Below, piece after piece: positions 28,544 through 63,430 of a stretch of 64,000 nt of DNA. The notes under the pieces were generated by a model. That model did no database searches and was not told the DNA's origin. It saw only the letters and a program-made list of their open reading frames with translations. Every line of letters starts with the position of its first letter. Position 1 is the stretch's first letter. The DNA lies in contig JALHLV010000009.1 of NCBI GenBank assembly GCA_022844405.1, forward strand, positions 5,001 to 69,000, read 5' to 3'. Made by a program: the position numbers and the translations under genes. Origin of the DNA: Sphingomonadales bacterium. Lineage in GTDB: Bacteria; Pseudomonadota; Alphaproteobacteria; SMXS01.

Positions 28544-29791
28544 ATGAGCGAAGCACTCGAGAAACTGAGCCTGTTCGATCCGGCGGTTCAGGAGGACTGG
28601 TACTCGGCCTACGAGATCCTGCATGACGAAGCACCAGTCTATTGGTGCGAGGAAGGCGGCTTCTTCGTCGTCACCAAATATGCCGACATCCAGGCCGTTT
28701 CGCGCGAGCCCAACCTGTTCTCGACCTTCGCGACGCGCCTGAGTTCCGACCCGCTGATCAAGTTCCCCGAGGCGGTGGAGATCTACGAGACGCGGGGTTG
28801 GCCGCGGTTCCAGCCCATGGTCACCGACCCGCCGATCCACAAGCAGTACCGGCGCAACTTCGACCACTATTTCAGCCCCAGCGGCGTGAAGGTGATGGAG
28901 CCGTTCATCCGCCAGTTCATCAATGGGCTGATCGACGGCTGGATCGGCCGGGGCGAGTGCGAGTTCGTGCGCGACTTCGCCATGCCGCTGCCGATGAACG
29001 TCATCACCAAGATGCTGGGCTTCCCCATGGAGGACCTGCCGCGGCTGAAGCACTGGTCGGAGGTCTGGGTGCGGCCGTTCGCGCGCGGCCTGAGCCTGGA
29101 GCAGGAAAAATACGTCGCCGAAATGGGCGTCGAGTTCCAGCACTACATCCACGAGCAGGCACAGGAGCGCCGCCGCAGCCCGCGCGACGACGTGCTGACC
29201 GCGCTGGTCAGCGGCACCGTCGGCGAAGGCGCCGACAAGCGGCCGCTGACCGACAACGAGATCATCGGCATCACCGACAATCTGCTGATCGGCGGCAACG
29301 AGACCACCACCTTCGCGCTCACCTCGGGTGTCTGGCTGCTGTTCCGCTTCCCCGGCATCTACGAGGAACTGAAGGCCGACCGGTCGAAGGTGCGCAACTT
29401 CGTCGAGGAGGTGCTGCGGATGGAGAGCCCAACCATGGGGTTGATGCGCTGCGCCACCGCGGACACCGAGATCAGGGGCGTCAAGATCCCCAAGGGCTCG
29501 GTGCTGAACCTGCGCTTCGCCGCCGGCAACCGGGACGAGGAGCAGTTCCCCGACGCCGCCTGTCCGCACCTCGACCGCAAGAACGCCGCCGCGCACCTGG
29601 CGTTCGGCCAGGCCGAACATCACTGCCCCGGCGCGGCGTTGTCGCGGCTGGAGCAGCTCTGCACGTTTGAAATCCTCCTCGACCGGCTCGACAATATCCG
29701 ACCGGCGCCCGGCAGGAACGACTACAGCCACCTGCCCGGCTTCACCCTGCGCGGCCTGAAACAACTCCATATCCATTTCGACAAGGTGTGA
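28544..29791 (+). CDS. Cytochrome P450
   Basis: A 415-residue soluble bacterial P450. The I-helix oxygen-activation motif is LIGGNETTTFAL, the ExxR motif is EEVLRME, and the haem-ligand loop is LAFGQAEHHCPGAALSRLE with Cys in place. The usual fourth residue Gly of FGxGxHxCxG is Ala here. ATG 28544 follows GGGGGAGAG. Redox partner is not adjacent; the ferredoxin at 18443 is a candidate. It stands first in a rightward run with the CphA-like protein, glycosyltransferase, alkaline-phosphatase-like protein and TonB receptor. It may tailor the product of that cluster, or be a stand-alone catabolic P450. Confidence 0.92.
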   Translation: MSEALEKLSLFDPAVQEDWYSAYEILHDEAPVYWCEEGGFFVVTKYADIQAVSREPNLFSTFATRLSSDPLIKFPEAVEIYETRGWPRFQPMVTDPPIHKQYRRNFDHYFSPSGVKVMEPFIRQFINGLIDGWIGRGECEFVRDFAMPLPMNVITKMLGFPMEDLPRLKHWSEVWVRPFARGLSLEQEKYVAEMGVEFQHYIHEQAQERRRSPRDDVLTALVSGTVGEGADKRPLTDNEIIGITDNLLIGGNETTTFALTSGVWLLFRFPGIYEELKADRSKVRNFVEEVLRMESPTMGLMRCATADTEIRGVKIPKGSVLNLRFAAGNRDEEQFPDAACPHLDRKNAAAHLAFGQAEHHCPGAALSRLEQLCTFEILLDRLDNIRPAPGRNDYSHLPGFTLRGLKQLHIHFDKV

Positions 29792-29837: not shown

Positions 29838-31643
29838 ATGCCGCATGAATCCGATCAACCCGGAATAAGACTCCCTTCGCCCTGGAGGGTCAGGCCGGGG
29901 TTCCTGTACGGTGTCAGGCAGGCAACCTTGACGGGCAGGTTCCATATCCGGATCGCGCCGGATTACTCCTTCGAGGCGCTGGATTCGGTCGTGGCCTCGA
30001 CCCTGGACGATACGCGCTACGAACCGCCGACGGCGCCTTCCGCCGTTGCGGGACTGGCAGACCGGGCGCTCCGGTGGATGACCGCCCTGCAGGTTCTCCA
30101 CAACATCCCGGTTTCGGACGTCCACCGGGTCGGCACGCCCGCCATGGTCGAGGACGGCTGGAGCGAGGTGGCCATCGCCGCGCCGTGCTACGCGAGGGGG
30201 GCGAGCGACGGCTGTCTCTCGCGGGTGATCGCGGCGATCAACGCCATTCTCGCCGCCTCCGAGAATACCGAAAGCATTCGCACCGTGCTGGACCTGGAGG
30301 ACCTCAAGGTCGCCTTCAAGCCCTATTCGGTGGGCGGAACCAACATGTTCCATTTCCTCCAGGCCGCCCTCGACATGGACGTTCCCTTCAGCGGTCTGGT
30401 ATCGAACATCTTCAGCTTCGGCATGGGCGCCGGCACGCGCTGGCTCAACAGTACGATCACCGACCAGACGCCCAACCTCGGCGTCAAGATCGCGCACGAA
30501 AAAATGTCGACGGCGGTCATGTTGCGGCGCGCCGGCCTGCCCGCGCCGGTTCACATGCTCGTCGCCGATGGGGCCGCGGCCGTCCGGGCGGCCGAAACGC
30601 TTGGCTATCCGGTCGTCGTAAAGCCGACCGATCAGGAACAGGGGCGCGGCGTTGCGGCCAATTTGGGCACCGCCGACGCGGTCCTCGCGGCGTTCGCCGA
30701 GGCCCAGACGGTTTCCAAGAGCTTGTTGGTCGAGAAACACTTTCACGGCAAGGACTACCGCCTCACCGTGGCGCGAGGCAACGTCATCAAGATCGAGAAC
30801 CGCATCGCCGGCGGTGTCGAGGGGGACGGCGTTTCCACGATCGAGGCGCTGGTGCGCGCTGCGCTGGACACGCCGCGCTTCCGAAAGTTTCTTCGCGACA
30901 GCGGCAAGGTACCGCTCAGCCTCGACGCCGAAGCCCTGGGCCTTCTGGGCGAATCCGGCCTGACACCGCAAAGCATTCCACCCGCGGGTGATTATGTGGT
31001 GCTTCGGCGCAAGAACAATGTGTCGACGGGCGGACTACAGATCAGGATCGGCGTCGACGACGCGCATCCGGACAATGTCTCGCTGGCGATCAGGGCGGCC
31101 GAGATCCTCCGGCTCGATTTCGCCGGGATCGACCTGCTCATCCCTGATATCAGGAACTCCTGGCTGGAGACGGGCGCGCTGATCTGCGAGGTGAACGCCC
31201 AGCCCCAGATCGGCGTCCGCACCACCCCGGAAATCTACCGCGAGGTGCTTTCCGGGCTGGTAGCCGATGGCGGCCGCATCCCGGCCCATCTCGTCGTCGC
31301 CACATCGGGAACCGAGATCGATCACGCCGACGCGGTTCGCGGCGCCAGCGCACTGGGGTGCCACGGGCTTTCGACGCGTTCAGGCGTCTGGATCGATGGC
31401 CGGCGCATCGTCGGACAACCCGGCGACGCGTACCATGCCGCGACGATCCTGCTCAGCGAACGGACCGCCCGGTCGGCGCTCTGCATCGTCTCGGCACAGG
31501 ATGTGATCGACAAGGGCCTGCCCGCGAGCCGTTTCCGGTCCATCCGCGTCTTCGGCCGGGACAGCAGCGCGGACACCCACAAACGCGAGCTCGCAACGCT
31601 TGTCCCCATGATAAAGCCCCATGCCGAACAGTTGGTGACCTGA
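29838..31643 (+). CDS. CphA-like ATP-grasp ligase with degenerate Mur domain
   Basis: A 601-residue relative of cyanophycin synthetase. Residues 70-145 match its N-domain. Residues 215-470 form an ATP-grasp domain, with VVVKPTDQEQGRG, LLVEKHFHGKDYRL, NNVSTGGLQI and ICEVNAQPQIG holding the ATP and metal ligands. Residues 480-580 still resemble the Mur-ligase domain (STRSGVWIDGRRIV), but the P-loop GTNGKTT is replaced by SGTEIDH and the rest of that domain is missing. It should form amide bonds only through ATP-grasp, as the cyanobacterial CphA2 type does. A GFLYGVRQ motif near residue 21 is shared with the homologue at 58334. ATG 29838 lies 46 bp after the P450. The substrate is unknown. Confidence 0.8.
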   Translation: MPHESDQPGIRLPSPWRVRPGFLYGVRQATLTGRFHIRIAPDYSFEALDSVVASTLDDTRYEPPTAPSAVAGLADRALRWMTALQVLHNIPVSDVHRVGTPAMVEDGWSEVAIAAPCYARGASDGCLSRVIAAINAILAASENTESIRTVLDLEDLKVAFKPYSVGGTNMFHFLQAALDMDVPFSGLVSNIFSFGMGAGTRWLNSTITDQTPNLGVKIAHEKMSTAVMLRRAGLPAPVHMLVADGAAAVRAAETLGYPVVVKPTDQEQGRGVAANLGTADAVLAAFAEAQTVSKSLLVEKHFHGKDYRLTVARGNVIKIENRIAGGVEGDGVSTIEALVRAALDTPRFRKFLRDSGKVPLSLDAEALGLLGESGLTPQSIPPAGDYVVLRRKNNVSTGGLQIRIGVDDAHPDNVSLAIRAAEILRLDFAGIDLLIPDIRNSWLETGALICEVNAQPQIGVRTTPEIYREVLSGLVADGGRIPAHLVVATSGTEIDHADAVRGASALGCHGLSTRSGVWIDGRRIVGQPGDAYHAATILLSERTARSALCIVSAQDVIDKGLPASRFRSIRVFGRDSSADTHKRELATLVPMIKPHAEQLVT

Positions 31644-31706: not shown

Positions 31707-32633
31707 ATGCTTGATATTGGACTGTGCATGACCGTCAAGGACGAGGTGGACAACCTCGCCGACTGCCTGATGGACATTGTCGACCTGTTCGCGCAAGTGG
31801 TGATCATCGACACGGGCTCAACCGATGGGACAAGGGAACTTCTGCGCGACCGCCTCGGCATCGAGCCGCTGTTCATGCCGCTCGACCCCAACGATTGCTG
31901 CGCTCTGTCGAGCCCGCGCAATCTCGGCTTCGAGCGGCTCGCGACGCCCTGGCTGATGACGCTCGACGCCGATGAGCGGCTCGACCGCGCGGAGCTGGAG
32001 GCGGTGATCGCGCTCGACGACAGCGACCTGCCAGCGGGCATCATCTTCGCATGGGATACCGAATTTGGGCCGGACCGGATCGTGGAGGATTACAAGCTCA
32101 TTCTGTTTCGCCAGCATCACCGCCACCGCGGTCTGGTTCACGACACCGCGCAACCGAGCCTCCGGGAGACCGGAGAGTCGGCTTGCTGGTCATCGCTGCT
32201 GCGCATCCGGCATTATCCAAGCCTGCCGGGCATACGGCAGAAGGACGATTGGTACGCCTGGCGCCTCGACTGCGCGCGCCGCCGCGAGCCGGACTGGCTT
32301 CGCTACCACTGGTTCAGCGGTTACATGGCGTACCGGCTCGGGCGCATCGCCGAGGCCGAGGCACTGATGCGGACGGTGCATGAGGGGCGTCCGGCACTGT
32401 TCCCCACCGAGTCGCTGAACGCATCGATGATCCTCGCGTCGATCCACGCCGCGCGCGGCCAGCGTGCCGAAACGCAAGCGGTCGTCGAGAACGCGCGGCA
32501 ATATCACCGCCAGGTCGCCGACGACTTCGAGATGAGGGTCAACTTTCGCCTGAAACCCTGGCTTGAAAGCGCCGCGGACAACGCCGCCCGTGGTAGCCTC
32601 GATGCCATAACACCTTACCTGTTTCCCTACTGA
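31707..32633 (+). CDS. Family 2 glycosyltransferase
   Basis: A 308-residue GT2-fold protein: MLDIGLCMTVKDEVDNLADC, then the nucleotide-binding strand VVIIDTGSTDGT and the DxD-like motif MTLDADERLD. It resembles SPASM/TPR-linked GT2 enzymes, with a helical C-terminal half that may be TPR-like. Sugar and acceptor are unknown. It starts 63 bp after the CphA-like gene and 16 bp precede the next gene, so an operon is likely. It could glycosylate the CphA-like product. Confidence 0.82.
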   Translation: MLDIGLCMTVKDEVDNLADCLMDIVDLFAQVVIIDTGSTDGTRELLRDRLGIEPLFMPLDPNDCCALSSPRNLGFERLATPWLMTLDADERLDRAELEAVIALDDSDLPAGIIFAWDTEFGPDRIVEDYKLILFRQHHRHRGLVHDTAQPSLRETGESACWSSLLRIRHYPSLPGIRQKDDWYAWRLDCARRREPDWLRYHWFSGYMAYRLGRIAEAEALMRTVHEGRPALFPTESLNASMILASIHAARGQRAETQAVVENARQYHRQVADDFEMRVNFRLKPWLESAADNAARGSLDAITPYLFPY

Positions 32634-32649: not shown

Positions 32650-34239
32650 ATGCCAGCCCCCGTGATCGCAATCGGCCTCGATGCCCTGGCGCCCGGCCTG
32701 CTGGAAGCCTGGACCGCCGAAGGCAAGCTGCCAACCATGGCCAAGCTCATGGCGCAGAGCCTCTATGCAAGGCAGCGGAACTTCGGCCTTTACCGGACCG
32801 AGAACAGCTGGCTCACCCTGCTGCATGGCTGCTCGGCCGAGACGAGCCATGAATGGGGCCATCAGGACTACGATGAGGGCAACTACGAGTTCACGGAAAG
32901 GGCGAGCTACGCGTTCAAGCGCTACCCGCCCTTCTACGCGCTGGGCGACCAGAAGCGGGTCGCGGTTTTCGACGTGCCGCTGACCGGACTGGTCGAGGGC
33001 GTCAATGGAGTCCAGTTGCTGGGATGGGGCACCGAGGTCAACCAGATCCTGCGCGAGTCTTCGCCGCCGGACCTGATGGCGCGAATGATCGAGCGCCACG
33101 GACGGCACCCGCTCTACGATACGATCACCAACGCCGATGACGGCACTGAAACCCTGTCCTACCGCATCCCTTGCCTTTACGACATGGACGCGCAGCGGGC
33201 GACCCGCGACAAGCTGATCGCGGCAACCCATCAGCGCACCGCGATGATCCGCGACCTGATGTGGCAGGGGCGCTGGGATTTCCTGATGGCGGTGTATGCG
33301 GAAATCCACACCGCCGGCCACATGTTCTGGCACCTCAGCCAGCCTCACCCGCTCCATGACGCCGTGCAACCGCTGGCCGGCGGCGACTTCCTGCTCGACA
33401 TTATGCAGGCCATCGATGCCGATCTGGCGCTGCTGATCGACGAGATGCCCGAGGATACGCAGCTGTTCCTGTTCTCGCCCCATGGCATGCAGGCGAACTC
33501 CATCGACCTCTATTCCATGTTCTTCCTGCCCGAGCTGCTCTACCGCTGGAGCACCGGGGAGGCTGCGTTCCGTGGCCGGGCGTCGGGCGGCGCCGTCCCG
33601 GCGCCTCAGCTCGACTTCCGGCGTCACTGGAGCGAGGAAATCTGGGACCTGAGGTCGGCACATGGCGACGCGGTGCTCGAGTCTCCCGCCGAGCAGGAAG
33701 CACGGCGCGATCCGCTGGACTGGGATCCGGGCAACTGGTATCGGCGCGTCTGGCCGATGATGCGCGCCTTCACCATGCCCGGCTATTCCGAGGGCCTGAT
33801 CCGCGTCAACGTCGCAGGACGGGACGGCCCCGACGGCATCGATCCCGCCGACTTCGACAAGGTCTGCGGCGAGATCGAACAGCTCGTCTCCGAAGTCGTC
33901 GACCCGAGAACCGGGCGGGCCGTCGTCGAGCAGGTGCTGAGGGTGCGGTCGACGCCCTGGGAAGATGCTGCGGACAGGTCGCCCGCCGACCTGATGGTGC
34001 TCTGGCATGACGACCTCACGGCCGATTCGGTCCAGCATCCGCACCTGGGCCAGATCGGCCCGATCCCCTATTTCCGCAGCGGCGGCCACGCCACCGAAGG
34101 CTTCGTGATTGCCCGCGGCCCGGGGTTCACGCCCGGCCTTCGCCTGGACGGCATCAGCACGCCGGATGTCACAGCGACGATCCTCGAACGGCTCGGTGTC
34201 GCCCGCCCCGACCATGTCGAAGGCCGCCCTATCGCCTAG
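32650..34239 (+). CDS. Alkaline-phosphatase-superfamily protein (phosphodiesterase-like)
   Basis: A 529-residue protein of the type I phosphodiesterase / nucleotide-pyrophosphatase group. The first metal aspartate is in IAIGLDALAP (Asp11); a likely nucleophile is Thr50 in YRTENSWLTL. Later metal sites appear as EIHTAGHMFWHL, SPHGMQAN and GGHATEGFVIARGPGF. Two usual aspartates are changed (AEIH where D is common, SPHG for SDHG), so metal use may differ. There is no signal peptide, so it acts in the cytosol, perhaps on a phosphorylated or nucleotide-activated intermediate of the cluster. It begins 16 bp after the glycosyltransferase. Confidence 0.8.
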   Translation: MPAPVIAIGLDALAPGLLEAWTAEGKLPTMAKLMAQSLYARQRNFGLYRTENSWLTLLHGCSAETSHEWGHQDYDEGNYEFTERASYAFKRYPPFYALGDQKRVAVFDVPLTGLVEGVNGVQLLGWGTEVNQILRESSPPDLMARMIERHGRHPLYDTITNADDGTETLSYRIPCLYDMDAQRATRDKLIAATHQRTAMIRDLMWQGRWDFLMAVYAEIHTAGHMFWHLSQPHPLHDAVQPLAGGDFLLDIMQAIDADLALLIDEMPEDTQLFLFSPHGMQANSIDLYSMFFLPELLYRWSTGEAAFRGRASGGAVPAPQLDFRRHWSEEIWDLRSAHGDAVLESPAEQEARRDPLDWDPGNWYRRVWPMMRAFTMPGYSEGLIRVNVAGRDGPDGIDPADFDKVCGEIEQLVSEVVDPRTGRAVVEQVLRVRSTPWEDAADRSPADLMVLWHDDLTADSVQHPHLGQIGPIPYFRSGGHATEGFVIARGPGFTPGLRLDGISTPDVTATILERLGVARPDHVEGRPIA

Positions 34240-34371: not shown

Positions 34372-36465
34372 ATCAAGCAGGTCCTGGGATCGATCGTAAC
34401 GGCTGCCGTCATGGCGGCGCTGGCTCACGGCGCCTTCGCCGACGAGCCGACGGCGCCGGACGCCAGACCCGCCGCCTCCCCGCCCGCGCCCGCCGAGCAG
34501 GTCGTTGTCACCGCCACCCGCGAGGCGACCAAACGCACGAACGTGCCGGAAAACACCGGCGTGATCGACGACAAGGCGCTGGCGGAAGCCCATGTGGTGC
34601 ATCCGTCCGAGATCATGGGGCGCATTCCCGGTGTCTACCAGGCCTGGCTGAGCGGCAACCACCACGTCACCGCGATCCGCCAGCCGATCAATTTCAACCC
34701 GCTCTATCTCTACCTGGAGAACGGTATCCCCAAGCAGGCGCCGGGGTTCTTCGAGACCAACGCCATGTTCGACATGAACGTGTCGCAGATCTCGCGCATG
34801 GAGGTCACCAAGGGACCCGGCACGGCGCTCTACGGCTCGGACGCCGTCGCCGGCGTCATCAGCGTCTTCACCCTGCCGCCGCCCGAGGATTTCTCCGGCA
34901 GCGTCCAGCTCCAGGGCAGCACCCGGGGCTTCAAGCAGGCGCTGATCTCGCTGGGCGGCACCACCGGCGCCCACGGGCTGCGCGCCGACATCAACCTGGC
35001 GCACGACAGCGGCTGGCGCGACCAAACCCAGGCCGACCACCAGATGGGCACCCTCACCTGGAACGTCGACAATGGCGGCAAGCTGACGGTGCGCAACACG
35101 CTGATCCTGACTCGCGTCAACCAGGATTCGCCGGGCTCGAACCTGAATCGCACGGAATACAAGAACACGCCCAAGATCAACCTGTCGCCCATCGACTTCC
35201 GGCTGGTCGAGGGCGTGCGGTTCCATAGCCGGATCGACTATGACCTGGGCGACAGCCTGCTCAGCTTCAACCCCTATGTACGCTGGGGTCGGACCAAGCT
35301 GATGCCGTTCTTCCAGCTGGCGTTCGATCCGGCCTATTTCGACCAGAACGCCACCTCGGTCGGCGCCCAGCTCAAGTTCCGCCACGACTTTTCGGATCGG
35401 CTCCGGCTGATCGCCGGCAGCGATGTGGACTACACCACCGGCAGCCGGGTCGACACCCAGATCCGTCCGGTACGCAACGGCCGGTTCTTTGTCTCCTTCA
35501 CCGAACTGGGCACCATCTACGATTTCAAGGCCAAGGCGCTGACCTTGTCGCCCTACGTTCACGGCGAATGGCAGATCACCGACCGCCTGCGCGCCACCGC
35601 GGGCGTGCGCTACGACTACACCCACTACGACTACACCAACAACCTGTCGACCGTGGTCAACCCGCGCGCCCCGCACAACCGGCCGCCCAGCCAGAGCTTC
35701 CACTACAACAACTTCACCCCGAAGGCCGGCGTCACCTACGACATCACCGACGGATTGAACGCGTTCTTCTCGTACCGGCAGGCGTTCCGGGTGCCGACCA
35801 CGACCCAGCTGTTCCGGCCGGGCACTTCGTCGCGCTCGACCGACCTGAAGCCGGTAAAGGCCGAGAGCTTCGAGCTGGGCCTGCGCGGCGGCTGGGAGCG
35901 CGTCAGCTTCGACCTGTCGGTCTACACCATGCAGATCAAGGACGACATCCTGGTGTTCACCAACAACGCCACCGGCGTCCGCGACATCCAGAACGCCGGC
36001 GACACCAGGCACAAGGGCGTCGAACTCGGCGTCAGCGTCGATATCACCGACACGCTGAGCGCCTCGGTGTCCTATGCCCGCACCGACAACCATTTCATCG
36101 AGTGGTTCCCGGTGGCGACCGCCGACCTGTCGGGCAACAAGATCAACCGGTCGCCGAGGGACGTGGGCAACGCCCGCGTGGTCTGGCGCCCGTCCTTTCT
36201 CAATGGCGGCCGGTTCGAGGTGTCGTGGGAACACGCGGGCAAGTACTTCATGGACGACGACAACACCCAGGTCTACGAAGGCCACGACCTGATGCATCTG
36301 GCCGCCAACATGTTCGTGGTGAAGAATGTCGAGGTGTTCGTGCGCCTGCACAACGTGACCAACGAACGCTATGCGACCAACAGCCGTTACACCGCCTTCG
36401 GCGGTCAGGAGCTGAAGCCCGGTCTGCCAAGGACGCTGTTCGGCGGCGTCGGGTTCAGCTTCTAG
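34372..36465 (+). CDS. TonB-dependent outer-membrane receptor
   Basis: A roughly 697-residue receptor: TonB box-like EQVVVTATREATK, plug domain with MEVTKGPGTALYGSDAVAGV, and a 22-strand-type barrel closing in LPRTLFGGVGFSF with terminal Phe. The first standard start, ATG 34411, would cut the signal peptide to ten residues. The frame is open upstream and encodes KQVLGSIVTAAVMAALAHG with an AFA cleavage site, beginning at an ATC (34372) six bases after GGGGAG. I place the start there as a rare ATC start or a changed ATG. It lies 132 bp after the phosphodiesterase-like gene. It may import a product or precursor of the cluster, or iron chelates. Confidence 0.85.
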   Translation: MKQVLGSIVTAAVMAALAHGAFADEPTAPDARPAASPPAPAEQVVVTATREATKRTNVPENTGVIDDKALAEAHVVHPSEIMGRIPGVYQAWLSGNHHVTAIRQPINFNPLYLYLENGIPKQAPGFFETNAMFDMNVSQISRMEVTKGPGTALYGSDAVAGVISVFTLPPPEDFSGSVQLQGSTRGFKQALISLGGTTGAHGLRADINLAHDSGWRDQTQADHQMGTLTWNVDNGGKLTVRNTLILTRVNQDSPGSNLNRTEYKNTPKINLSPIDFRLVEGVRFHSRIDYDLGDSLLSFNPYVRWGRTKLMPFFQLAFDPAYFDQNATSVGAQLKFRHDFSDRLRLIAGSDVDYTTGSRVDTQIRPVRNGRFFVSFTELGTIYDFKAKALTLSPYVHGEWQITDRLRATAGVRYDYTHYDYTNNLSTVVNPRAPHNRPPSQSFHYNNFTPKAGVTYDITDGLNAFFSYRQAFRVPTTTQLFRPGTSSRSTDLKPVKAESFELGLRGGWERVSFDLSVYTMQIKDDILVFTNNATGVRDIQNAGDTRHKGVELGVSVDITDTLSASVSYARTDNHFIEWFPVATADLSGNKINRSPRDVGNARVVWRPSFLNGGRFEVSWEHAGKYFMDDDNTQVYEGHDLMHLAANMFVVKNVEVFVRLHNVTNERYATNSRYTAFGGQELKPGLPRTLFGGVGFSF

Positions 36466-36523: not shown

Positions 36524-37288
36524 ATGATGGGACGCTGCGACGGGAAGGTCATCTACATCACCGGCGGCTCGTCGGGCATCGGCAAGGAGTCCGCGGCGTG
36601 GCTGGTGCGCGAGGGCGCACGGGTCGCCCTCGCCGACATCAACGAGGCCGCGGGCCGGGAAGCCGCCGCGCCGTTCGGCGACAAGGCCATCTTCCTCAGG
36701 CACGACGTGACCAGCGAAGCCGACTGGGCCGCCAACCTGGAAGCCGCCCGCAGCCACTTCGGCCGGCTCGACATCGTGGTGAACTGCGCCGGCGTGGTCG
36801 TCACCGGCAATCCGGTCGACATGCCGCTGGAGGACTGGAACCGGGTATTCCGCATCAATGTGGACGGCAGCTTCCTCGCCGGCAAGTACAGCATTCCGCT
36901 GCTGGCCAAGCACGGCGGCGGCCAGCTCATCCAGTTCTGCTCCATCGCCTCCTATTCGGCGTCGCCGGGCCTCGTCGGCTATTGCGGGTCGAAGGCGGCG
37001 GTGCGCTCGCTGATGCGCTCGCAGGCCAAGTACTGCAAGGAGGCGGGCAACGGCGTCCGCGTGAACGGCATCTTCCCGGGCCCGATCCTGACGCCGATGA
37101 CCAACAACGTGCTCGACGGCGCCATGGGCCAGGGCGCCCACACCCAGTTCAAGCCGGGCCAGGTCAGCCCGTTCGGCGTGCTGGGCGCCGCCGAGGACAT
37201 CGCCGCCGGCGTGCTGTTCCTCGCCTCGGACGAGTCCCGCTACGCCAACGGCACCGAGCTGGTGCTGGACGGCGGCACGACGCTCTGA
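36524..37288 (+). CDS. Short-chain dehydrogenase/reductase (SDR)
   Basis: A 254-residue classical SDR: cofactor motif ITGGSSGIGKES, NAG-type NCAGVV, catalytic Ser in CSIASYS and YCGSK for the Tyr/Lys pair. The Asp after the second strand (ALADINEA) suggests NAD(H). GGGGAGA precedes ATG 36524. The gene follows the TonB receptor after 58 bp that include a palindrome, so it may have its own promoter. The substrate is unknown. Confidence 0.92.
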   Translation: MMGRCDGKVIYITGGSSGIGKESAAWLVREGARVALADINEAAGREAAAPFGDKAIFLRHDVTSEADWAANLEAARSHFGRLDIVVNCAGVVVTGNPVDMPLEDWNRVFRINVDGSFLAGKYSIPLLAKHGGGQLIQFCSIASYSASPGLVGYCGSKAAVRSLMRSQAKYCKEAGNGVRVNGIFPGPILTPMTNNVLDGAMGQGAHTQFKPGQVSPFGVLGAAEDIAAGVLFLASDESRYANGTELVLDGGTTL

Positions 37289-38385: not shown

Positions 38386-39117
38386 ATGACCAAGCCACTG
38401 CCAAAGTTCCTTCCCATCGTCGCGATCCTCGGCGAGGTGTTTCAACTCCATTGGCGGCACGTGCTGATGCTGTTCGCCATGACCGCGGCCTACGCGCCGC
38501 CGCTGATCTTCGGCCTCGGCCCGGCGATGATCGAGATTTCGAAGATCCCGCCCGAGCGCATGCAGGAAATCGACGGCGCGCTGCGCGGCAGTTTCATGGC
38601 CAGCTTCGTCGCGGTCATCGTCCTCAGCGCGGCGATCTTCGTGCTCTGGGTCCGCGTGACCCTGATCGGGGCGCGCGCCGCGCTGCTGGGCGATCCGGCG
38701 AGATGGCCGATCCGCATCCTCCGGGTCATCGGGCTGTTCGCGGTCGCCAGCCTGGGCGGCGTCGTCGCGCTGTTGCCGCTCGGCATGTTCACGCAGCTGC
38801 TGGCGACGCTGGCGATCTCGTTCCTGTTCGCGCTGCTGTCGCGGCGGCTGGTGGTCGCCTCCATGGATATTCCAAAGGGACAGGGTCGAACCGCCGTCAC
38901 CATGGAGGACCACTTCCGCCTCGCCGCGCTTCTCGCCGCCGCGAGTTTCCTGCTGCTGCTGGTCCAGACGGTGGTATCCGGCGGGCTTGCCCTGGTCGGC
39001 GCGACGCTGACGGCGAAGGTGGCCGCCGGGCTGTTCTCGGTGCTTGCGATCACGGTGATGGCGTCGCTCCACGCCGTCGTCTACCGGTTGCGGACGATGG
39101 CGCCCACGGTTCCCTAG
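38386..39117 (+). CDS. Hypothetical membrane protein
   Basis: A 243-residue protein with about five hydrophobic segments (near residues 25-45, 70-95, 122-150, 183-205 and 208-228) and no recognised domain. CGAGGACG precedes ATG 38386. It follows the DUF3237 gene by 11 bp. Its stop overlaps the stop of the leftward DUF4231 gene (39114-39117), so it is convergent with the TIR/SLATT-like pair and probably unrelated to it. Confidence 0.75.
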   Translation: MTKPLPKFLPIVAILGEVFQLHWRHVLMLFAMTAAYAPPLIFGLGPAMIEISKIPPERMQEIDGALRGSFMASFVAVIVLSAAIFVLWVRVTLIGARAALLGDPARWPIRILRVIGLFAVASLGGVVALLPLGMFTQLLATLAISFLFALLSRRLVVASMDIPKGQGRTAVTMEDHFRLAALLAAASFLLLLVQTVVSGGLALVGATLTAKVAAGLFSVLAITVMASLHAVVYRLRTMAPTVP

Positions 39118-39584
39118 GTCGCTTTCGTCACGGCCGCCGAAGTCTCGTGGTCGGCGTCCTGGTCCCGAGGCTTCTGCTCGGACTCGCGCCGGCCCTGCAT
39201 CCATGACGCGTTGTCGTCGGAAACCAGCGCCTCGACATTCTCCACCAGCAGCCGGAGCGCCTTGGCCTCGGGCAGGTTGTAGCTGCCGGTACGACCCATA
39301 TAGAGGAACTTCTCGCGCCGGAGCTGCTCGCAGGTCTGCCGGTACTGGACCCAATAGCGGTGATGCTGGTTCATCTGCTGCAGCCCCTCGACGATCACCA
39401 CGACGACGCCGAGCGCGCCGGGGATGAAGGGCCAGTCCGTGACCGCCGCCGTCAGCGGCACCAGGGCCGCGGCCACCATGCTGATGACCTTGAGTATCTT
39501 GTATTGGGCCTGGTGCCACAGGCTTTTGCGATCGTACCAGGCGATCTGGTCCTCAAGCCGCTCGTAGCCGCTATCCATGGTCAT
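39114..39584 (-). CDS. SLATT-like / DUF4231 membrane protein, TIR partner
   Basis: A 156-residue protein with two adjacent hydrophobic helices at about residues 31-49 and 52-68, after the conserved YERLEDQIAWYDRKSLWHQ stretch. A helical tail includes QQMNQHHRYWVQYRQTCEQL. This is the DUF4231/SLATT layout: short, two membrane helices and a cytosolic helical segment. SLATT proteins are predicted pore-forming effectors of nucleotide-signalled immunity. Its ATG (39584-39582) overlaps the TGA of the TIR gene as ATGA, so it depends on translation of that gene. The DUF4231 match is by eye. Confidence 0.75.
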   Translation of the reverse strand: MTMDSGYERLEDQIAWYDRKSLWHQAQYKILKVISMVAAALVPLTAAVTDWPFIPGALGVVVVIVEGLQQMNQHHRYWVQYRQTCEQLRREKFLYMGRTGSYNLPEAKALRLLVENVEALVSDDNASWMQGRRESEQKPRDQDADHETSAAVTKAT

Positions 39585-40240
39585 TTCGCCCTCAGGCCCA
39601 TGACGAACAGGCACACCGACAATCCCAGTAAGAACAGCGCGCCCAGCAGGGTTTCCGAATCGCCTGTCGACATCACCTCGACGCAGCTTCCGAGCGAGAA
39701 CAGCAGGCTGGCGGCGGCACCGATAAGCAGCCAGGTCTTCTTGTTGCCCTTGCGCACGGGCGGCGGCGTGGGAGTGGGAGTGGGAGTGGGAGTGGGAGCC
39801 GGTGTTGGGGTAGGCGTGGGCGGCGGCTGTGGCGGACGGGGCTGCTTGAGTATAGCCGCGACGGCGTCGACCAGCTGGTTGAAGGATTCGTTCCGCGCCG
39901 ACGGTTCCCAGCCGATCAGGTCGGCGGCCTGGATGCGGCGGAACTCGAACGGAATGTCGGTCTGCGTGATCAGTGCCGGTACCAGGATGCCCCGGTCGGC
40001 GGCGGCGCCAGCCTCGTTCACCACCCAGCGCGACGCGGCGGAATCGGTCGACCAGAGCACGATGACGCAGCGCGCGCTGTTCAGTGCGTTCTCGATGACC
40101 CTGGCATAGTCCTGTCCGGGCGGGATGCGCCGGTCCCACCAGGTCGTCCAGCCGAAGGCCTCGAGCCGGCGGGCGAGCTTTTCCGCCTCGCCGCGATCCT
40201 CGCTGGCATAGCTGATGAAGATGTCCGCCGCACCCGTCAT
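39581..40240 (-). CDS. TIR-domain membrane protein
   Basis: A 219-residue protein with a TIR domain at residues 5-133: FISYASEDRGEAEKLARRLE, the WWDRRIPPG loop, and SRWVVNEAGAAADRG. Glu76 sits where the NAD-hydrolysing glutamate of SARM1-type TIRs lies, so NADase or cyclase activity is plausible. A Pro/Thr linker (136-161, mostly TP repeats) leads to two membrane helices at about 169-187 and 198-215. The start is ATG 40240; an upstream in-frame ATG at 40270 lacks support. It is coupled by ATGA overlap to the SLATT-like gene and divergent from the CoxL-like gene over 208 bp. There is no nucleotidyltransferase nearby. Confidence 0.85.
   Translation of the reverse strand: MTGAADIFISYASEDRGEAEKLARRLEAFGWTTWWDRRIPPGQDYARVIENALNSARCVIVLWSTDSAASRWVVNEAGAAADRGILVPALITQTDIPFEFRRIQAADLIGWEPSARNESFNQLVDAVAAILKQPRPPQPPPTPTPTPAPTPTPTPTPTPPPVRKGNKKTWLLIGAAASLLFSLGSCVEVMSTGDSETLLGALFLLGLSVCLFVMGLRAK
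39768..39797 (-). repeat. Hexamer tandem repeat, (GTGGGA)x5
   Basis: Five perfect copies of GTGGGA on the plus strand inside the TIR gene, encoding Thr-Pro repeats of the linker. Being a multiple of three, slippage would change linker length without breaking the frame. Imperfect copies continue to about 39835. Confidence 0.9.
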
Positions 40241-40448: not shown

Positions 40449-42812
40449 ATGCAGAAATTCGGCATCGGCCAGCCGGTCCGCCGCACCGAGGACGTCCGTT
40501 TCGTCACCGGCAACGGCGCCTACACCGACGACATCAACATCCCCGGGCAGGCGCATGGCTATGTGCTGCGGTCGCCCTATGCCCATGCGCTGATCACGTC
40601 GATCAACACCGCGGACGCAAAGCGCGCGCCCGGTGTCATCGGCGTGTTCACCGCCGCCGACCTGGCGGCGGCGGGCGTCAACGACATCCCGTGCTTCGCC
40701 GGCGGCTTCATCAAGAACAAGGACGGCAGCGACATCTTCGCGCCCGGCCGTCCCGCGCTCGCCAAGGACCGCCTGCTCTATGTGGGCGACGGCATCGCCT
40801 TCATCGTCGCCGAGACCGTCAACCAGGCGAAGGACGCCGCCGAGCTGATCCAGGTCGATGTCGTGGACCTGCCGTCGGCCGCCAATTTGAAGGACGCCGT
40901 CGCGCCGGGCGCACATACCATCTGGGACGGCGCGCCGGGCAACCTGGCGTTCGATTGGGAGATGGGCAACGACGCAGCCTCGCAGGCGGCGTTCAAGGGC
41001 GCCAAGCACGTCACCAGGATCGACCTCGTGCACAACCGCATCGCCACCAACGCCATGGAGCCGCGCGCGGCCATCGGCGAGTTCAATACCGGCGAGGACC
41101 GCTACGTGCTGCGCACCTGCACCCAGGGCGCCAACGGCATGCAGGCCGGCATCGCCGGCGCGGTGTTCGGCATCGATCCGTCCAAGCTGCGCATCTTCAC
41201 GCCCGACGTGGGTGGCGGATTCGGCATGAAGACCTTCATCTATCCCGAGCATGTGCTGGTGCTGTTCGCCGCCAAGGCGCTCGGCCGGCCGGTGAAATGG
41301 AACGGCGAGCGCATCGAGGCCTTCACCAGCGACACCGGCGGCCGCGACATGTTCACCCATGCCCAGCTCGCCATCGACGCGAACAACCGGATCACCGCGT
41401 TCCGCGTCGTCAACGAGGCCAACATGGGCGGCTACATGTCGGCGAACGGCCCGTTCATCCCGACCATCGCCCACGCCCGCATCCTGGGCGGCGTCTACAA
41501 CATCCCGAACGTCTACGTGAACGTGAAGGGCTACATGTCCAACTCGGTGCCGGTGGACGCCTATCGCGGCGCCGGACGCCCCGAGGCCGCCTATATCATC
41601 GAACGCGCCATGGACCAGGCGGCGCGCGAGCTGGGCGTGGCGCCGGACGAATTCCGTCGCATCAACTTCATCACGCCCGAACAGATGCCCTACCAGCATC
41701 CGTTCGGCTTCGTGTTCGACAGCGGCGAGTTCGAGCGCAACATGGAGGACGCCAAGCGCAATGCCAAGTGGTCGACGCTCGCCGAGCGCAAGGCGGCGTC
41801 CCGCGCCAGGGGCAAGGCCCGCGGCATCGGCATGGCCTATTACATCGAAACCACGCTGGGCATGCCCACCGAGGCGGCCGAAATCCTGTTCCTCGAGGAC
41901 GGTACCGTCGAGATCGTCACCGGCACCATGTCCAACGGCCAGGGCCATGAGACGGCCTGGGCGCAGGTCGTCTCCGAGCAGCTCGGCGTGCCGTTCGAGA
42001 ACATCCGGCTGGTCCAGGGCGACACGGACCGGGTGAAGTCCGGCCAGGGCACCGGCGGCTCGCACTCGCTCTACATGGCGGCGGGCGCGTTCCAGGAGAC
42101 ATCCAACGTCGTCATCAAGAAGGGCAAGATCATCGCCGCGCTGATGCTGGACGACCAGCCGCAGAACATCGACTTCAACGAGGGACTGTTCCGCGTCCCC
42201 GGCACCAACAAGTCGGTCGGCATCATGGACGTGGCGGCCAAGGCCCGCCGGGCGAACGAACTCGACCTGCCCGCCGAGACCAGGGAAATGTTCGTCAACG
42301 GCCTCAACAGCGCCGCCAGCTACAAGTACAACAACTCCACCTTCCCGAACGGCTGCCATATCTGCGAGGTCGAGGTCGATCCCGACACCGGCAAGGTCGA
42401 CATCGTCGGCTACACGGTGGTGGACGATTTCGGCAAGCTGGTGAACCCGCTGCTGGTCGCCGGCCAGGTGCATGGCGGCGTGGTGCAGGGCATCGGCCAG
42501 GCGCTGACCGAGGACTGGCTCTACGACAGCGACAGCGGCCAGTTGATCACCGGCTCGTTCATGGACTACGGCATGCCGCGCGCCGACGACATGTGCCACA
42601 TCGATTTCTCGTACAACGAGATCCTGTGCAAGACCAACCCCTACGGCATCAAGGGTTGCGGCGAGGCCGGCACCATCGGCGCGTGTCCGTCGCTGATGAA
42701 CGCCATCGTCGACGCGCTGCTGCCCTACGGCGTCACCGCCATGGACATGCCGGCCACGCCGCTGCGGGTGTGGAAGGCCGTCCAGGCCGGCACGCGGCAG
42801 GCGGCGGAGTAG
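40449..42812 (+). CDS. Form II CoxL-like molybdenum hydroxylase large subunit (1)
   Basis: A 787-residue molybdopterin-binding subunit of the xanthine dehydrogenase / CO dehydrogenase superfamily. The active-site loop is [13 protein letters not shown], the form II signature; true aerobic CO dehydrogenases have AYRCSFR. The catalytic glutamate is in KGCGEAGTIG, and GGGFGMKTF and NGQGHETAWAQ bind the cofactor. CCAGGGGAG nine bases upstream fixes ATG 40449. No FAD or iron-sulphur subunit lies in this direction; it is followed after 10 bp by an XdhC-type maturation gene. It is closely similar to the protein at 45572. Substrate unknown. Confidence 0.9.
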   Translation: MQKFGIGQPVRRTEDVRFVTGNGAYTDDINIPGQAHGYVLRSPYAHALITSINTADAKRAPGVIGVFTAADLAAAGVNDIPCFAGGFIKNKDGSDIFAPGRPALAKDRLLYVGDGIAFIVAETVNQAKDAAELIQVDVVDLPSAANLKDAVAPGAHTIWDGAPGNLAFDWEMGNDAASQAAFKGAKHVTRIDLVHNRIATNAMEPRAAIGEFNTGEDRYVLRTCTQGANGMQAGIAGAVFGIDPSKLRIFTPDVGGGFGMKTFIYPEHVLVLFAAKALGRPVKWNGERIEAFTSDTGGRDMFTHAQLAIDANNRITAFRVVNEANMGGYMSANGPFIPTIAHARILGGVYNIPNVYVNVKGYMSNSVPVDAYRGAGRPEAAYIIERAMDQAARELGVAPDEFRRINFITPEQMPYQHPFGFVFDSGEFERNMEDAKRNAKWSTLAERKAASRARGKARGIGMAYYIETTLGMPTEAAEILFLEDGTVEIVTGTMSNGQGHETAWAQVVSEQLGVPFENIRLVQGDTDRVKSGQGTGGSHSLYMAAGAFQETSNVVIKKGKIIAALMLDDQPQNIDFNEGLFRVPGTNKSVGIMDVAAKARRANELDLPAETREMFVNGLNSAASYKYNNSTFPNGCHICEVEVDPDTGKVDIVGYTVVDDFGKLVNPLLVAGQVHGGVVQGIGQALTEDWLYDSDSGQLITGSFMDYGMPRADDMCHIDFSYNEILCKTNPYGIKGCGEAGTIGACPSLMNAIVDALLPYGVTAMDMPATPLRVWKAVQAGTRQAAE

Positions 42813-58333: not shown

Positions 58334-60448
58334 TCAGGCCGCAGCGCCCGCCTTGGTCAGGTTCACGTCTGCAAGACCACGGCGGATGACGTCGGCGCCA
58401 TAGCCCATGCTGAAGGCCGCCGCCGCGGCGAGGGCGGCGTCCTCCGGCGCGCAGTCGATGCGCTGGCCACCGTCGCGCGCCAGGCTCGCGAGGTCGATGG
58501 CTTCGCCGCCCACCAGGAGCCGGTAGCCGCCGTCGCTCCGGTCGACGACCACAGCGTCATGCCCCGCGCCGACATGCTCGCGGACCGCCGCCATCTCGGC
58601 GCCCGCCGACGACAGCACGACGCGGGCATTGCGCAGCGAACCAGCTACGCGACGCCATGCCGTCTGGCGGGAATCGATGACCACGCCCTTGAGGCTGACC
58701 GGCAACAGCATGCGGACCAGGTGGTTGAATGTTGCCTCGCTGCCGTCGTCGCCCTCGAACCGGGTTCCCTCCAGCACGATCGTGGTACAGCGGTCGAACG
58801 GCAGGCACCTCGTCAGGACCGAGCGGTGCGACACGGCGACCACCAGCGCATCGGTGGCGCGGTCGATCAGCGCCCAGCGCGCCGCGTCGAAGAAGTCCTC
58901 GGATCTACCCCGCGACGGCACGACCGCGGTGCGCAACCCGGCGGCGGTCAGTATCCGGCCGACCAGCACAGGCACCGGCGAACCCTCGTCCGCTCCCGCC
59001 ACCACGGCGATGGGAATGCGGCCATCCTCCTGGACCAGCCGCTTCAGAATCTGGCCGTACAGGTGTTTGGAAGTGGTATTGCCGATGGTCGGCTGGGCGT
59101 TCACCTCGCAGATCGCCGCGCCGGTTTCCTTCCACGAGCGCGAAATGTCCGGGATCAGCAGATCGATGCCGGCCAGGTCGAGCCGCAGCGCGTTGGCCGC
59201 CCGTTCGGCCAGGCGGGCGTTATCGGGATGCACCTGGTCGAAGGCCGCCTCGGGCGTACCGCCGGTGGCGACGTTGGCCGCCCGGCGCAACCGGACACGA
59301 TCGCCCGCCGCCGGCACCGATTGCACGGTCATGCCGTAGCCCGACAGAAGCTCGGCGGCCTCTCGATCGAACACCACCGGCTTGAGCGGCGCATCGGCCC
59401 GCTTGGCACGGGCCGGCTCCTGGTTGAGGCGTTCGACCAGTTGCGCCACGGTACTGACGCCGTCGCCGGTAACTCCGCCGGGAACCCGTTCGAGCGCCCA
59501 GATCATCCTTCCGTCGTGAACCACGAGCCGGTAGTCGCGCCCGTCGACATGCTTCTCGACCATGACGTTGGTCGAGAACTGCCGCGCCGTCTCATACGCC
59601 TGGACGACGCCCGCGTCGTCCACCAGCCCCGCCGCCACCGCGACGCCGCCGTCACGGTCCGCCGGCTTGACCACCACGGGATAGCCGATGCGGGACGCGG
59701 CGGCCACCGCCTCGCTGGCTGACCGTGCCAGCTCATGCTTCGGCACCGGCAACCCAGCCTGGCGGAGGAGGTCGGCCGCCGCGATCTTGTTGCGCGCCAG
59801 GCGCATGGAAATCGCCGGCGTCACGTCGGTCAGCGTGCTTTCGATCCAGCGGGCCCTGGAGCCCATGCCGATCTGGAAGACCTCGGCGGTAAGCCTGAAC
59901 CATGGCAGTTTCCTGTCATAAGCCGCTCTCAGGAAGTGTGGGGTGTTCGACCCGCCGGTGCGGACGCTGGCATGACGCGCGACAAATTCGTCCACCTTTT
60001 TCCGGGCCTCCTCTACGATCCGCGCCGCCGCAACGCCATCGTCGAGGACGTCGGCGATCAGGTCGGCGACGATCAGCAACGCCTCGCTGGCCGCCTCCAC
60101 ATTGATAGCCGGCAGGGCCAGGACGTAGCGTCCGGGGCCTCCCATTCCCACGACCCGTCCCCGATCGAACACCGGTTGGCCGGCGGCGCGCTGGAGCTCC
60201 GCGGTCCAGGCTACGAGCCGCTCGGGCAACGTCGAGAGTTTCCCCGAATCCGCGTCGCTCCGCGGAATCGCGGCTGATAGCGCCGCGTCGACGGCGGACA
60301 GCGCCATATCTGGCGGCGCCGCCACGCTCACGACGGCCCGCACGAACTCCTGCCTCAGGCCGTAGCCAAATCCGCCGGCGGAGAACTTCCTATGGTTCAC
60401 CGTCACAGCGCGGCCCAAGGGCTTGCCTGCCTTTGAAGGATCGGTCAT
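58334..60448 (-). CDS. CphA-like ATP-grasp ligase with degenerate Mur domain (second copy)
   Basis: A 704-residue relative of cyanophycin synthetase. An N-domain (residues 26-140, with GFGYGLRQEF and RLVAWTAELQRAAGQPV) leads to an ATP-grasp domain at 215-470 with VVVKPADRDGGVAVAAG, MVEKHVDGRDYRLVV, ANVATGGTPE and ICEVNAQPTIG, all needed for activity. Residues 475-700 align with the Mur-ligase domain, but its P-loop GTNGKTT reads GADEGSP, so the second ATP site is dead; the Mur closing motif (AALAAAAAFSMGYGADVIRR) remains. It should ligate by ATP-grasp only. It starts 9 bp after the methyltransferase stop, an evident operon. Homologous throughout to the protein at 29838. Confidence 0.82.
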   Translation of the reverse strand: MTDPSKAGKPLGRAVTVNHRKFSAGGFGYGLRQEFVRAVVSVAAPPDMALSAVDAALSAAIPRSDADSGKLSTLPERLVAWTAELQRAAGQPVFDRGRVVGMGGPGRYVLALPAINVEAASEALLIVADLIADVLDDGVAAARIVEEARKKVDEFVARHASVRTGGSNTPHFLRAAYDRKLPWFRLTAEVFQIGMGSRARWIESTLTDVTPAISMRLARNKIAAADLLRQAGLPVPKHELARSASEAVAAASRIGYPVVVKPADRDGGVAVAAGLVDDAGVVQAYETARQFSTNVMVEKHVDGRDYRLVVHDGRMIWALERVPGGVTGDGVSTVAQLVERLNQEPARAKRADAPLKPVVFDREAAELLSGYGMTVQSVPAAGDRVRLRRAANVATGGTPEAAFDQVHPDNARLAERAANALRLDLAGIDLLIPDISRSWKETGAAICEVNAQPTIGNTTSKHLYGQILKRLVQEDGRIPIAVVAGADEGSPVPVLVGRILTAAGLRTAVVPSRGRSEDFFDAARWALIDRATDALVVAVSHRSVLTRCLPFDRCTTIVLEGTRFEGDDGSEATFNHLVRMLLPVSLKGVVIDSRQTAWRRVAGSLRNARVVLSSAGAEMAAVREHVGAGHDAVVVDRSDGGYRLLVGGEAIDLASLARDGGQRIDCAPEDAALAAAAAFSMGYGADVIRRGLADVNLTKAGAAA

Positions 60449-60457
60449 GGATCCGCT

Positions 60458-61243
60458 CTAGCGCCCGGCCGCCGCTGGCGTCGCCGCCACCATGAACAAC
60501 TCCCACCGCATGCCGATACCGCCAGGCAAGGCATCGACCCCCAGTTCGGCGGCGATGGTGCGCGCGGTTTCCGCAGGTGTCGAGCTGCGCAGATCGAACA
60601 GGCGGTGGGCGAACTCCCCCATATCGTCGAGATTGGAGAACCGCCAATGGAACGGCACCCGTTCGGCCGAGACGACGTCGAACCCGGCCCGTTGCAACTC
60701 GTCGATCGTGTGGTCGCCCAGATAGCTGCCGACGTGGCCGGTGCTGTTGTGCCGGTCGACCCAGCCGTCGAGGAAGCGGGAAACCGCCGATGCCTCGTGG
60801 ACGTCGGCCAGCACCAGCCGGCCGCCCGGCCTGATGACCCGGGCCAGCTCGTTGAACAGCGGCATCTTGTCGTCGAGATGGTGGACGCCGGCGATGGAAA
60901 GCGCCGCGTCGAGGCTGGCACCGCCCCAGGGCAGCGGCAACAGGTCGCGGTCCTGTCCGGAGGCGCCGTGACCGAACGACGAACAGGGTTCGTGGCCGAG
61001 CCAGGTGCAGCCCTGCGGCAGGTATCTCGCCAGGTAGCCACCACCGGCCGGCACGTCGCCGACCAGCGCGCCTTGCGGCAGGTTCGCACGGGCGATGGTG
61101 TTGAGGAATTCCTCGCGCCGCGCTTCGGGGAAGCGGGTCATGGCGCCGTCATAGGGGGCGCCGCGGAGCTGGAACAACTCTTCGTAGTTGGCGGGAGCCG
61201 AACCGGCGTCGATCGCCAACTTGGTATTCTTGCGTTCGACCAT
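60458..61243 (-). CDS. SAM-dependent methyltransferase (CphA-like operon)
   Basis: A 261-residue class I methyltransferase. The SAM loop is GALVGDVPAGGGYLARYLPQ, then DAALSIAGVHHLDDKMP and RVIRPGGRLVLADVHEASAV. It resembles small-molecule O/N/C-methyltransferases. It precedes the CphA-like gene by 9 bp, with no other gene in the unit, so it probably methylates the ligase substrate or product. The start is ATG 61243, MVERKNTKLAID. It is divergent from the SDR over 186 bp that hold no other gene. Confidence 0.85.
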   Translation of the reverse strand: MVERKNTKLAIDAGSAPANYEELFQLRGAPYDGAMTRFPEARREEFLNTIARANLPQGALVGDVPAGGGYLARYLPQGCTWLGHEPCSSFGHGASGQDRDLLPLPWGGASLDAALSIAGVHHLDDKMPLFNELARVIRPGGRLVLADVHEASAVSRFLDGWVDRHNSTGHVGSYLGDHTIDELQRAGFDVVSAERVPFHWRFSNLDDMGEFAHRLFDLRSSTPAETARTIAAELGVDALPGGIGMRWELFMVAATPAAAGR

Positions 61244-63428: not shown

Positions 63429-63430
63429 GG

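Follow-up and report, generated by a model that had tools for sequence, protein, structure and literature searches.

The described enzymes closest to the gene studied here are the cyanophycin synthetases CphA1 and CphA2, and for CphA1 several residues of the ATP-grasp (G) domain have assigned roles. H267 is described in PMC9262961 as a stabilizer of the acyl phosphate, its Ala mutant being inactive in SuCphA1, and in PMC9427784 and PMC9262961 G456 is given as an oxyanion residue, R458 is placed near the alpha-carboxylate of the incoming Asp, and E215 is described as touching an Arg side chain of the polymer. Another described system is the Campylobacter capsule, where, as reported in PMC11800379, the TupA-like ATP-grasp domain of Cj1438 amidates glucuronic acid with an amine phosphate, the phosphatase Cj1435 strips the phosphate and chain extension is the work of a GT2. 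Amino-acid-decorated polysaccharides are known, for example from Vibrio alginolyticus (PMC4663550).

Here we describe a CphA-derived ligase (the target) encoded in a 64,000-nucleotide stretch of DNA from a Sphingomonadales bacterium, hereafter the window. The ligase-GT2 gene order is conserved in three other genomes (G001, G003 and G006), and the features on which the analysis draws are as follows.

28544..29791, plus strand: cytochrome P450, 46 bp upstream of the target; in the same place in G003 and G001, not in G006
29838..31643, plus strand: CphA-derived ligase (the target), 601 aa, assigned by profile and PDB sequence matches
29838..30317, plus strand: N-domain, about residues 1-160, carrying GF-x-YG-x-RQ
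30318..31271, plus strand: ATP-grasp (G) domain, about residues 161-478, compared with TeCphA1 in a residue table
30621..30650, plus strand: P-loop(G) KPTDQEQGRG, residues 262-271, in which CphA1 His267 is replaced by Gln268
31182..31214, plus strand: ICEVNAQPQIG, residues 449-459, with Glu and Asn retained, Gly456 replaced by Gln457 and Arg458 by Gly459
31272..31640, plus strand: putative Mur core remnant, about residues 479-601, where the ORF ends
31305..31325, plus strand: SGTEIDH, residues 490-496, replacing the Mur P-loop GTNGKTT in the TeCphA1 alignment
31707..32633, plus strand: GT2 glycosyltransferase, with GmaR as nearest PDB sequence (3.3e-8) and weak matches to TagF and SunS
32650..34239, plus strand: type I phosphodiesterase / nucleotide pyrophosphatase family protein
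34411..36465, plus strand: TonB-dependent receptor, within the run in G003 and G001 and about 7 kb off in G006
36524..37288, plus strand: SDR oxidoreductase, the final gene of the run
58334..60448, minus strand: second CphA-derived ligase, 704 aa, 40% to the target over residues 20-580, without a Mur P-loop
60458..61243, minus strand: methyltransferase, in one run with the second ligase

The target ORF contains no internal stop. Its N-domain motif reads GFLYGVRQ (residues 21-28), in which G21, G25 and Q28 are invariant across 16 relatives, and a motif search of this domain did not find the Cx19HxxEH hydrolase motif, which is weak evidence because, when 10 long CphA-type rows were tested, the same crude pattern turned up in only 1. 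EKHFHGKDYRL occupies residues 299-309, and STRSGVWIDGRRIV, in the Mur segment, residues 512-525. The profile PRK14016 matched with 254.8 bits (E 1.7e-75), reaching profile position 562 of 871, and TIGR02068 with 229.9 bits, reaching position 544 of 862; neither approached the curated CphA1 cut-offs (877 bits for PRK14016, 850 bits for TIGR02068). Pfam RimK scored 33.3 bits, above its cut-off of 21. By sequence the closest PDB entry was CphA1 (7lgm, 4.5e-50), followed by the CphA2 entries 7ta5 (1.8e-29) and 8fxh (5.8e-27).

A reading made from the sequence alone had described a Mur-like segment with SGTEIDH in place of GTNGKTT and an early stop, and the alignment with TeCphA1 bears this out: GTNGKTT, from TeCphA1 residue 495, falls on the degenerate loop, and the match runs to TeCphA1 residue 569 by sequence and to about residue 617 of 877 by structure. 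That reading also named two outcomes that would count against it, an ordinary CphA1 with a functional P-loop and a frameshift concealing the rest of the Mur domain. Profile scores far under the cut-offs, the degenerate P-loop and the altered residues rule out the former, and the latter is ruled out by the gap of 63 bp to the downstream GT2 gene together with the equal length of the closest complete orthologue (L045, 601 aa, 77% identity).

We then mapped residues onto TeCphA1, taking their functions from the accounts in PMC9427784 and PMC9262961 and leaving a weak match (L094_-_1209) out of the residue table. TeCphA1 K220, K261, R309, R323, N394, S396, D431, E450 and N452 are all retained in the target (K222, K262, R308, R322, N394, S396, D432, E451 and N453), so that the two ATP lysines (K222, K262), the Mg ligands (D432, E451, N453) and the acyl-phosphate Arg (R308) that characterize the RimK/GshF/CphA branch of the ATP-grasp superfamily are present. 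Across 16 relatives K222, K262, R308, N394, D432, E451 and N453 do not vary, and R322 is nearly invariant; in the wider family, the group that includes the second window copy has Ala for S396, and L049 has Lys for R323. In contrast, H267, G456, R458 and E215 of TeCphA1 are replaced, by Q268, Q457, G459 and K217, respectively. In both CphA2 sequences position 267 is Lys, preceded by His at 266, G456 is retained and position 458 is Phe or Tyr, indicating that the target fits neither family at these positions. The CphA2 G-loop KPVxGHKGIG and tail NAAPG(I/V)(F/Y)MH likewise differ from KPTDQEQGRG and NAQPQIGVR in the target, which lacks the G-loop and tail residues common to 7ta5 and 8fxh. The earlier claim of a complete cyanophycin synthetase motif set therefore stands for the ATP and Mg residues but not for the four replaced positions, while its view of a ligase with the ATP-grasp as sole remaining site agrees with the retained ATP and Mg residues and the dead Mur P-loop. 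These comparisons suggest an intact ATP site and a substrate that probably differs from those of the cyanophycin enzymes, and the target probably joins an acid and an amine other than those of cyanophycin, in line with the product other than cyanophycin that had been anticipated.

An AlphaFold2 model built with ten sequences was of medium quality (pLDDT 67.5, pTM 0.45), and outside residues 93-480 its fold assignment depends on the CphA rows alone. In a Foldseek search the top match was TeCphA1 (E 1.1e-34), with CphA2 lower (8.6e-27). VIA-align matched model residues 10-601 to TeCphA1 1-617 (526 aligned, Z 21.7), with an rmsd of 16.6 that indicates displaced domains and with the TeCphA1 N-domain span known from the first and last aligned residues only, and residues 7-601 to 6-583 of CphA2 7ta5 (475 aligned, Z 18.9). 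Because both alignments extend to residue 601, we read the C-terminal part as a Mur-core remnant, and by the model the protein lacks the lid and the remainder of that core. Comparison of the target with L045 gave a dN/dS of 0.28 overall, 0.31 for the N part, 0.25 for the G-domain and 0.32 for the Mur remnant. All three parts are under purifying selection, and the Mur remnant is constrained despite its absent P-loop. One of the three closest orthologues, that of G001, is interrupted, through either a biological change or an assembly fault.

Trees were built on 272 G-domain columns with NAGGN synthetase rows as outgroup, and for a second tree 11 near-duplicate or long-branch rows were removed. 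One group united the target with its orthologues and with the paralogues on contigs C1, C18 and C16 (SH-aLRT 96.9 / UFBoot 97 in the first tree, 66.4/90 in the second), and the main type of phage homologue, described below, joined it with moderate support in the second tree (85.9/80). CphA2 lay outside the group in both trees, its own position shifting between them. Forcing CphA2 into the target clade cost 27 log-likelihood units (AU 0.0139, SH 0.289), a clade without CphA2 was compatible with the data (AU 0.617), and grouping CphA2 with the paralogues on C3, C6 and C8 was not rejected (AU 0.522, in a test that also forced out phage and other rows). A separate origin for the single-site types of the target and of CphA2 is thus favoured, though not proven. 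As a precedent, CphA2 holds for the architecture but not for the residues, and the trees place it elsewhere, though the topology tests disagree.

The host genome (3.78 Mb, 41 contigs) carries eight CphA-like genes, one of them the second copy in the window; at the aligned position all eight lack a Mur P-loop, and none reaches the CphA1 cut-off. The copies on C3, C6 and C8 are more CphA2-like, that on C3 matching 7ta5 at 1.5e-49. Six other genomes of the genus have 2-6 CphA-like loci each among the candidates scored (E < 1e-20), and no such locus turned up in three genomes representing two further genera of the family. Relatives that may be Mur-competent do occur in the genus: one homologue in G001 (L088) is longer and contains GSMGKT, which resembles a P-loop, and in G004 the same gene is present as a fragment (L091) cut before the P-loop position. 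The cyanophycinase profile TIGR02069 had no match at E <= 0.001 in the seven genus genomes (two of them 78% and 84% complete), which extends to the genus the absence of a cyanophycinase noted earlier for the neighbourhood; the same profile, one of several cyanophycinase types, matched in 5 of 14 control genomes and exceeded its cut-off in 2. A profile of the target group, which also finds ordinary CphA1, had matches at E <= 1e-60 in 22 of the 385 class genomes sampled and in 33 of the 398 sampled from the phylum. Short P-loop-less homologues occur in several other lineages (L156, L157, L159, L160, L162, L166 and others), and the plasmid relatives listed are mostly annotated as CphA1, NAGGN synthetase or GshF, with some unannotated.

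The target lies in a run ordered P450, ligase, GT2, phosphodiesterase, TonB receptor and SDR. The run in G006 is ligase-GT2-phosphodiesterase; G005 and contig C1 share the order ligase-phosphodiesterase-GT1, to which C1 adds a sulfotransferase. Within the genus the phosphodiesterase has seven close copies (at least 38%), of which six adjoin a ligase gene, four of the six being orthologues of one locus, and the seventh has GT1 and methyltransferase partners instead; evidence for a ligase-phosphodiesterase association within the genus is good. The phosphodiesterase family seems to be multiplied in the host genome too, with three neighbouring copies at L198 (G000:C11:20000-39000). In the alignment of the 32650-34239 product, the residue near the expected nucleophile position of this family, between the invariant Glu51 and Trp54, is Ser in orthologues and Cys in two relatives, possibly reflecting an altered active site.

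Elsewhere in the family, a methyltransferase precedes the ligase at the second window copy, L156, L157 and L043 (assigned at L043 through a BLAST match to the second copy's methyltransferase), and the ligase at L162 is followed by GT25, nucleotidyltransferase and sugar-dehydratase genes. A group-transfer enzyme (methyl-, sulfo- or formyltransferase, or the GT25, nucleotidyltransferase and sugar dehydratase set) shared a strict operon with the ligase at 12 of 16 loci tallied post hoc, or 12 of 26 when ten further dead-P-loop loci that by eye lack such a partner are counted. As a rough expectation, chance would give 3.9 of the 16 at 10% per gene (P=4.5e-6), the rates of 6, 10 and 15% being assumed post hoc. 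In a pooled control comparing 97 genes within two of a ligase with 97 genes at least five away, methyltransferases numbered 5-7 near versus at least 2 far, and Glycos_transf_2 genes fewer than 2 near versus 4 far, without enrichment of glycosyltransferases; L163, with poor gene calls, was left out of this control and of the tallies. The association between ligase and methyltransferase is suggestive, whereas a general link between ligases and glycosyltransferases is unsupported by the control. TonB receptors beside two of the ligases share 21-23% identity, and on this ground we reject a ligand common to the two operons.

The region of the second ligase (58334-61243 and 62205-64000, both minus strand; L044) also has chorismate-binding and AMP-binding-type enzymes close by and looks like an aryl-metabolite locus, its order of gene families being identical in four genus genomes. 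In G006 a ligase of another branch (L087, G006:C40, 5185-7005) is divergent from a contractile injection-type operon that starts at 7384 and has tail sheath and baseplate domains. Further features of the window include a TIR-domain protein overlapping a small SLATT/DUF4231-type membrane protein (39114-40240, minus strand), likely a defence or signalling pair, and a 1673-aa protein (8963-13984, minus strand) that looks exported by eye and has no Pfam match at E 0.001. Three large ORFs of one BLAST family within 11 kb (40449-42812, 45572-47872 and 48708-51080) look like xanthine/aldehyde dehydrogenase large subunits, and MoCoBD domains were found in a pooled scan containing the first of them. 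Rfam had no match within the window, and a promoter scan of it gave chance level only.

Relatives of the target are also carried by phages. Scanning virus contigs with the profile yielded 35 candidate stretches, of which 14 encode relatives, and the main type comprises nine loci (L172-L179 and L183), one of them cut off. The copies read are 584-599 aa long, with an earlier start possible for one ORF, and their alignment to the target begins in the G-domain and continues through the Mur remnant. A rescan with a phage protein as query recovered seven main-type loci, including that on its own contig, and in our gene set this protein was closest to the target's orthologue in G006 (33% over 571 aa). 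Three of five main-type contigs searched carry the T4-type major capsid protein gp23, as does the one contig searched of a second type (L180), which has a sulfotransferase near its ligase. On the contigs read, the main-type ligase is flanked by a 309-aa ORF and a Methyltransf_24-type gene (Pfam was run on two), with long repetitive tail-fibre-like ORFs nearby, and at L178 a TPR/GT9-type gene precedes these genes. The 309-aa ORF had no match in Pfam, PHROG or the PDB and its model had a pLDDT of 42; we accordingly dropped a by-eye call of it as a glycosyltransferase. Annotated phage records in INPHARED gave no full-length match to the ligase and eight partial ones, covering residues 203-464 at most. 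Literature search results showed no report of Mur-dead CphA-derived ligases in phages or glycan cassettes.

We propose that a CphA-like ancestor gave rise to the target as a working ATP-grasp amide ligase. The G-domain would use ATP to phosphorylate one carboxylate and the acyl group would then be handed to an amine, forming an amide; with the Mur site lost, one kind of bond would be made per cycle, and the product would not be cyanophycin. The likeliest role, judging by the gene neighbours, is to place an amino acid or other amine on a carboxyl of a glycan or glycosylated small molecule, with the adjacent GT2 building the glycan and the phosphodiesterase-family protein trimming that glycan, in the manner of Cj1438 and Cj1435, and the paralogues in the genome and the T4-like phage copies may perform the same chemistry on other partners. 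We hold this reading, of a one-site ATP-dependent amide ligase decorating a glycan or glycosylated small molecule, tentatively and at slightly less than an even chance, and we are less confident of the acceptor than of the amide-bond reaction. The reading is consistent with the retention of the ATP, Mg and Arg309 residues beside the loss of cyanophycin-related ones, with a model that matches CphA1 and CphA2 to residue 601, with dN/dS values of 0.25-0.32 in all parts, and with a genome that has no match at the CphA1 cut-off in a genus without TIGR02069 matches. The phosphodiesterase adjoining the ligase in six of seven cases with a GT2 or GT1 in the same run, and the group-transfer enzymes at 12 of 16 loci, likewise favour it, and a glycan-directed combination of ATP-grasp amidoligase, GT2 and phosphatase has a precedent in the system described in PMC11800379. 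However, His267, inactive as Ala in CphA1, is Gln in the target, the pooled control lacks glycosyltransferase enrichment while the partner tally falls to 12 of 26, the target operon shows no carboxylated-sugar pathway, one orthologue is interrupted, and the model is mediocre.

The P450, TonB receptor and SDR would equally fit a diffusible metabolite, and the ligase might instead form an amide in a metallophore or signal that the P450 and SDR tailor, the GT2 glycosylates, an MFS protein exports and the TonB receptor re-imports. Genes for a P450, SDR, TonB receptor, TetR and MFS protein do surround the ligase in G000, G003 and G001, and close to the second copy are methyltransferases together with a chorismate-binding and an AMP-binding-type enzyme. 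We nevertheless find such a product doubtful, as the P450 and TonB receptor fall outside the ligase-GT2-phosphodiesterase run kept in G006, the low identity of the TonB receptors at two ligases marks them as generic, and no such genes were seen adjoining the phage copies on the contigs read. GmaR and SunS glycosylate proteins or peptides. Their standing as the nearest PDB sequence of the GT2 and a very weak further match, respectively, would suit a ligase whose substrate is a protein or a ribosomal peptide, the GT2 then glycosylating protein, as would the fold shared with RimK and LysW ligases and the tail-fibre-like ORFs as possible targets near the phage copies; yet this fold match is common to all ATP-grasp enzymes, and the gaps of 46, 63 and 16 bp around ligase and GT2 are too short for a precursor gene, making a protein or peptide substrate quite improbable.

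We give little credence to a CphA2-type enzyme that rebuilds cyanophycin or a similar polymer from dipeptides. Although the target shares the N, G and truncated Mur core without P-loop and lid described for CphA2 in PMC9427784, and Arg458 is missing in CphA2 too, its G-loop and tail residues are unlike both CphA2 structures, the AU test speaks against CphA2 inside the clade (0.0139, though p-SH is 0.289), and none of the seven genomes has a TIGR02069 cyanophycinase to furnish dipeptides. An inactive relic or scaffold protein appears just as improbable: the Gln at catalytic-loop His267, whose Ala mutant is reported as inactive in SuCphA1 (PMC9262961), and the interrupted orthologue would fit decay, but the seven invariant ATP-site residues with R322 nearly so, the G-domain dN/dS of 0.25 and the published activity of CphA2, which has Lys at the aligned place and His one residue earlier, argue for a functional enzyme.

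By its sequence, the target is a genuine and conserved CphA relative with a dead Mur site, set apart by its residues from both CphA1 and CphA2; such relatives have multiplied within one bacterial genus and also occur in T4-like phages. The best profile name, "cyanophycin synthetase", would predict a storage polymer in a genome that has neither a CphA1 above cut-off nor a TIGR02069 cyanophycinase. To our knowledge, few ligases are known that attach amino acids to polysaccharides; if glycan decoration is correct, these ligases would fill that gap, and the phage-carried ligase would offer a testable route by which viruses alter surfaces. That Mur-dead CphA-derived ligases form an unrecognised class amide-linking amino acids or amines to glycans, and serve bacteria and T4-like phages (in the latter next to tail-fibre-like genes) as exchangeable modules of decoration cassettes that alter the surface of cells or virions, we regard as a rather unlikely generalization. 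The selected Mur remnant also raises the question of what role the fold has without its P-loop.

Compared with known systems, the target resembles CphA1 in its N-G-M order, its ATP and Mg residues and its fold match over residues 10-601, and differs in having no Mur P-loop, in ending ahead of the lid, in the replacement of H267, G456, R458 and E215, and in a genome without a TIGR02069 cyanophycinase. With CphA2 it shares a truncated Mur core without a P-loop, a length of about 600-640 aa, an ATP-grasp site alone and no Arg458, but not the G-loop or the tail residues, and probably not the tree position. N-acetylglutaminylglutamine (NAGGN) synthetase (TIGR03103) and GshF have a homologous ATP-grasp domain, with N-terminal parts that differ from that of the target, and no Mur remnant was seen in the NAGGN synthetase rows. 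The Campylobacter pathway, compared by description, is a mechanistic analogue that likewise combines an ATP-grasp amide ligase, a GT2 and a phosphatase, although the C-terminal amidoligase of Cj1438 is TupA-like and Cj1435 is a HAD-type phosphatase, where the target has a phosphodiesterase-family neighbour. With a phosphodiesterase-family gene alongside its GT2 and ATP-grasp ligase, the target operon would resemble Cj1438 and Cj1435 in function rather than in membership.
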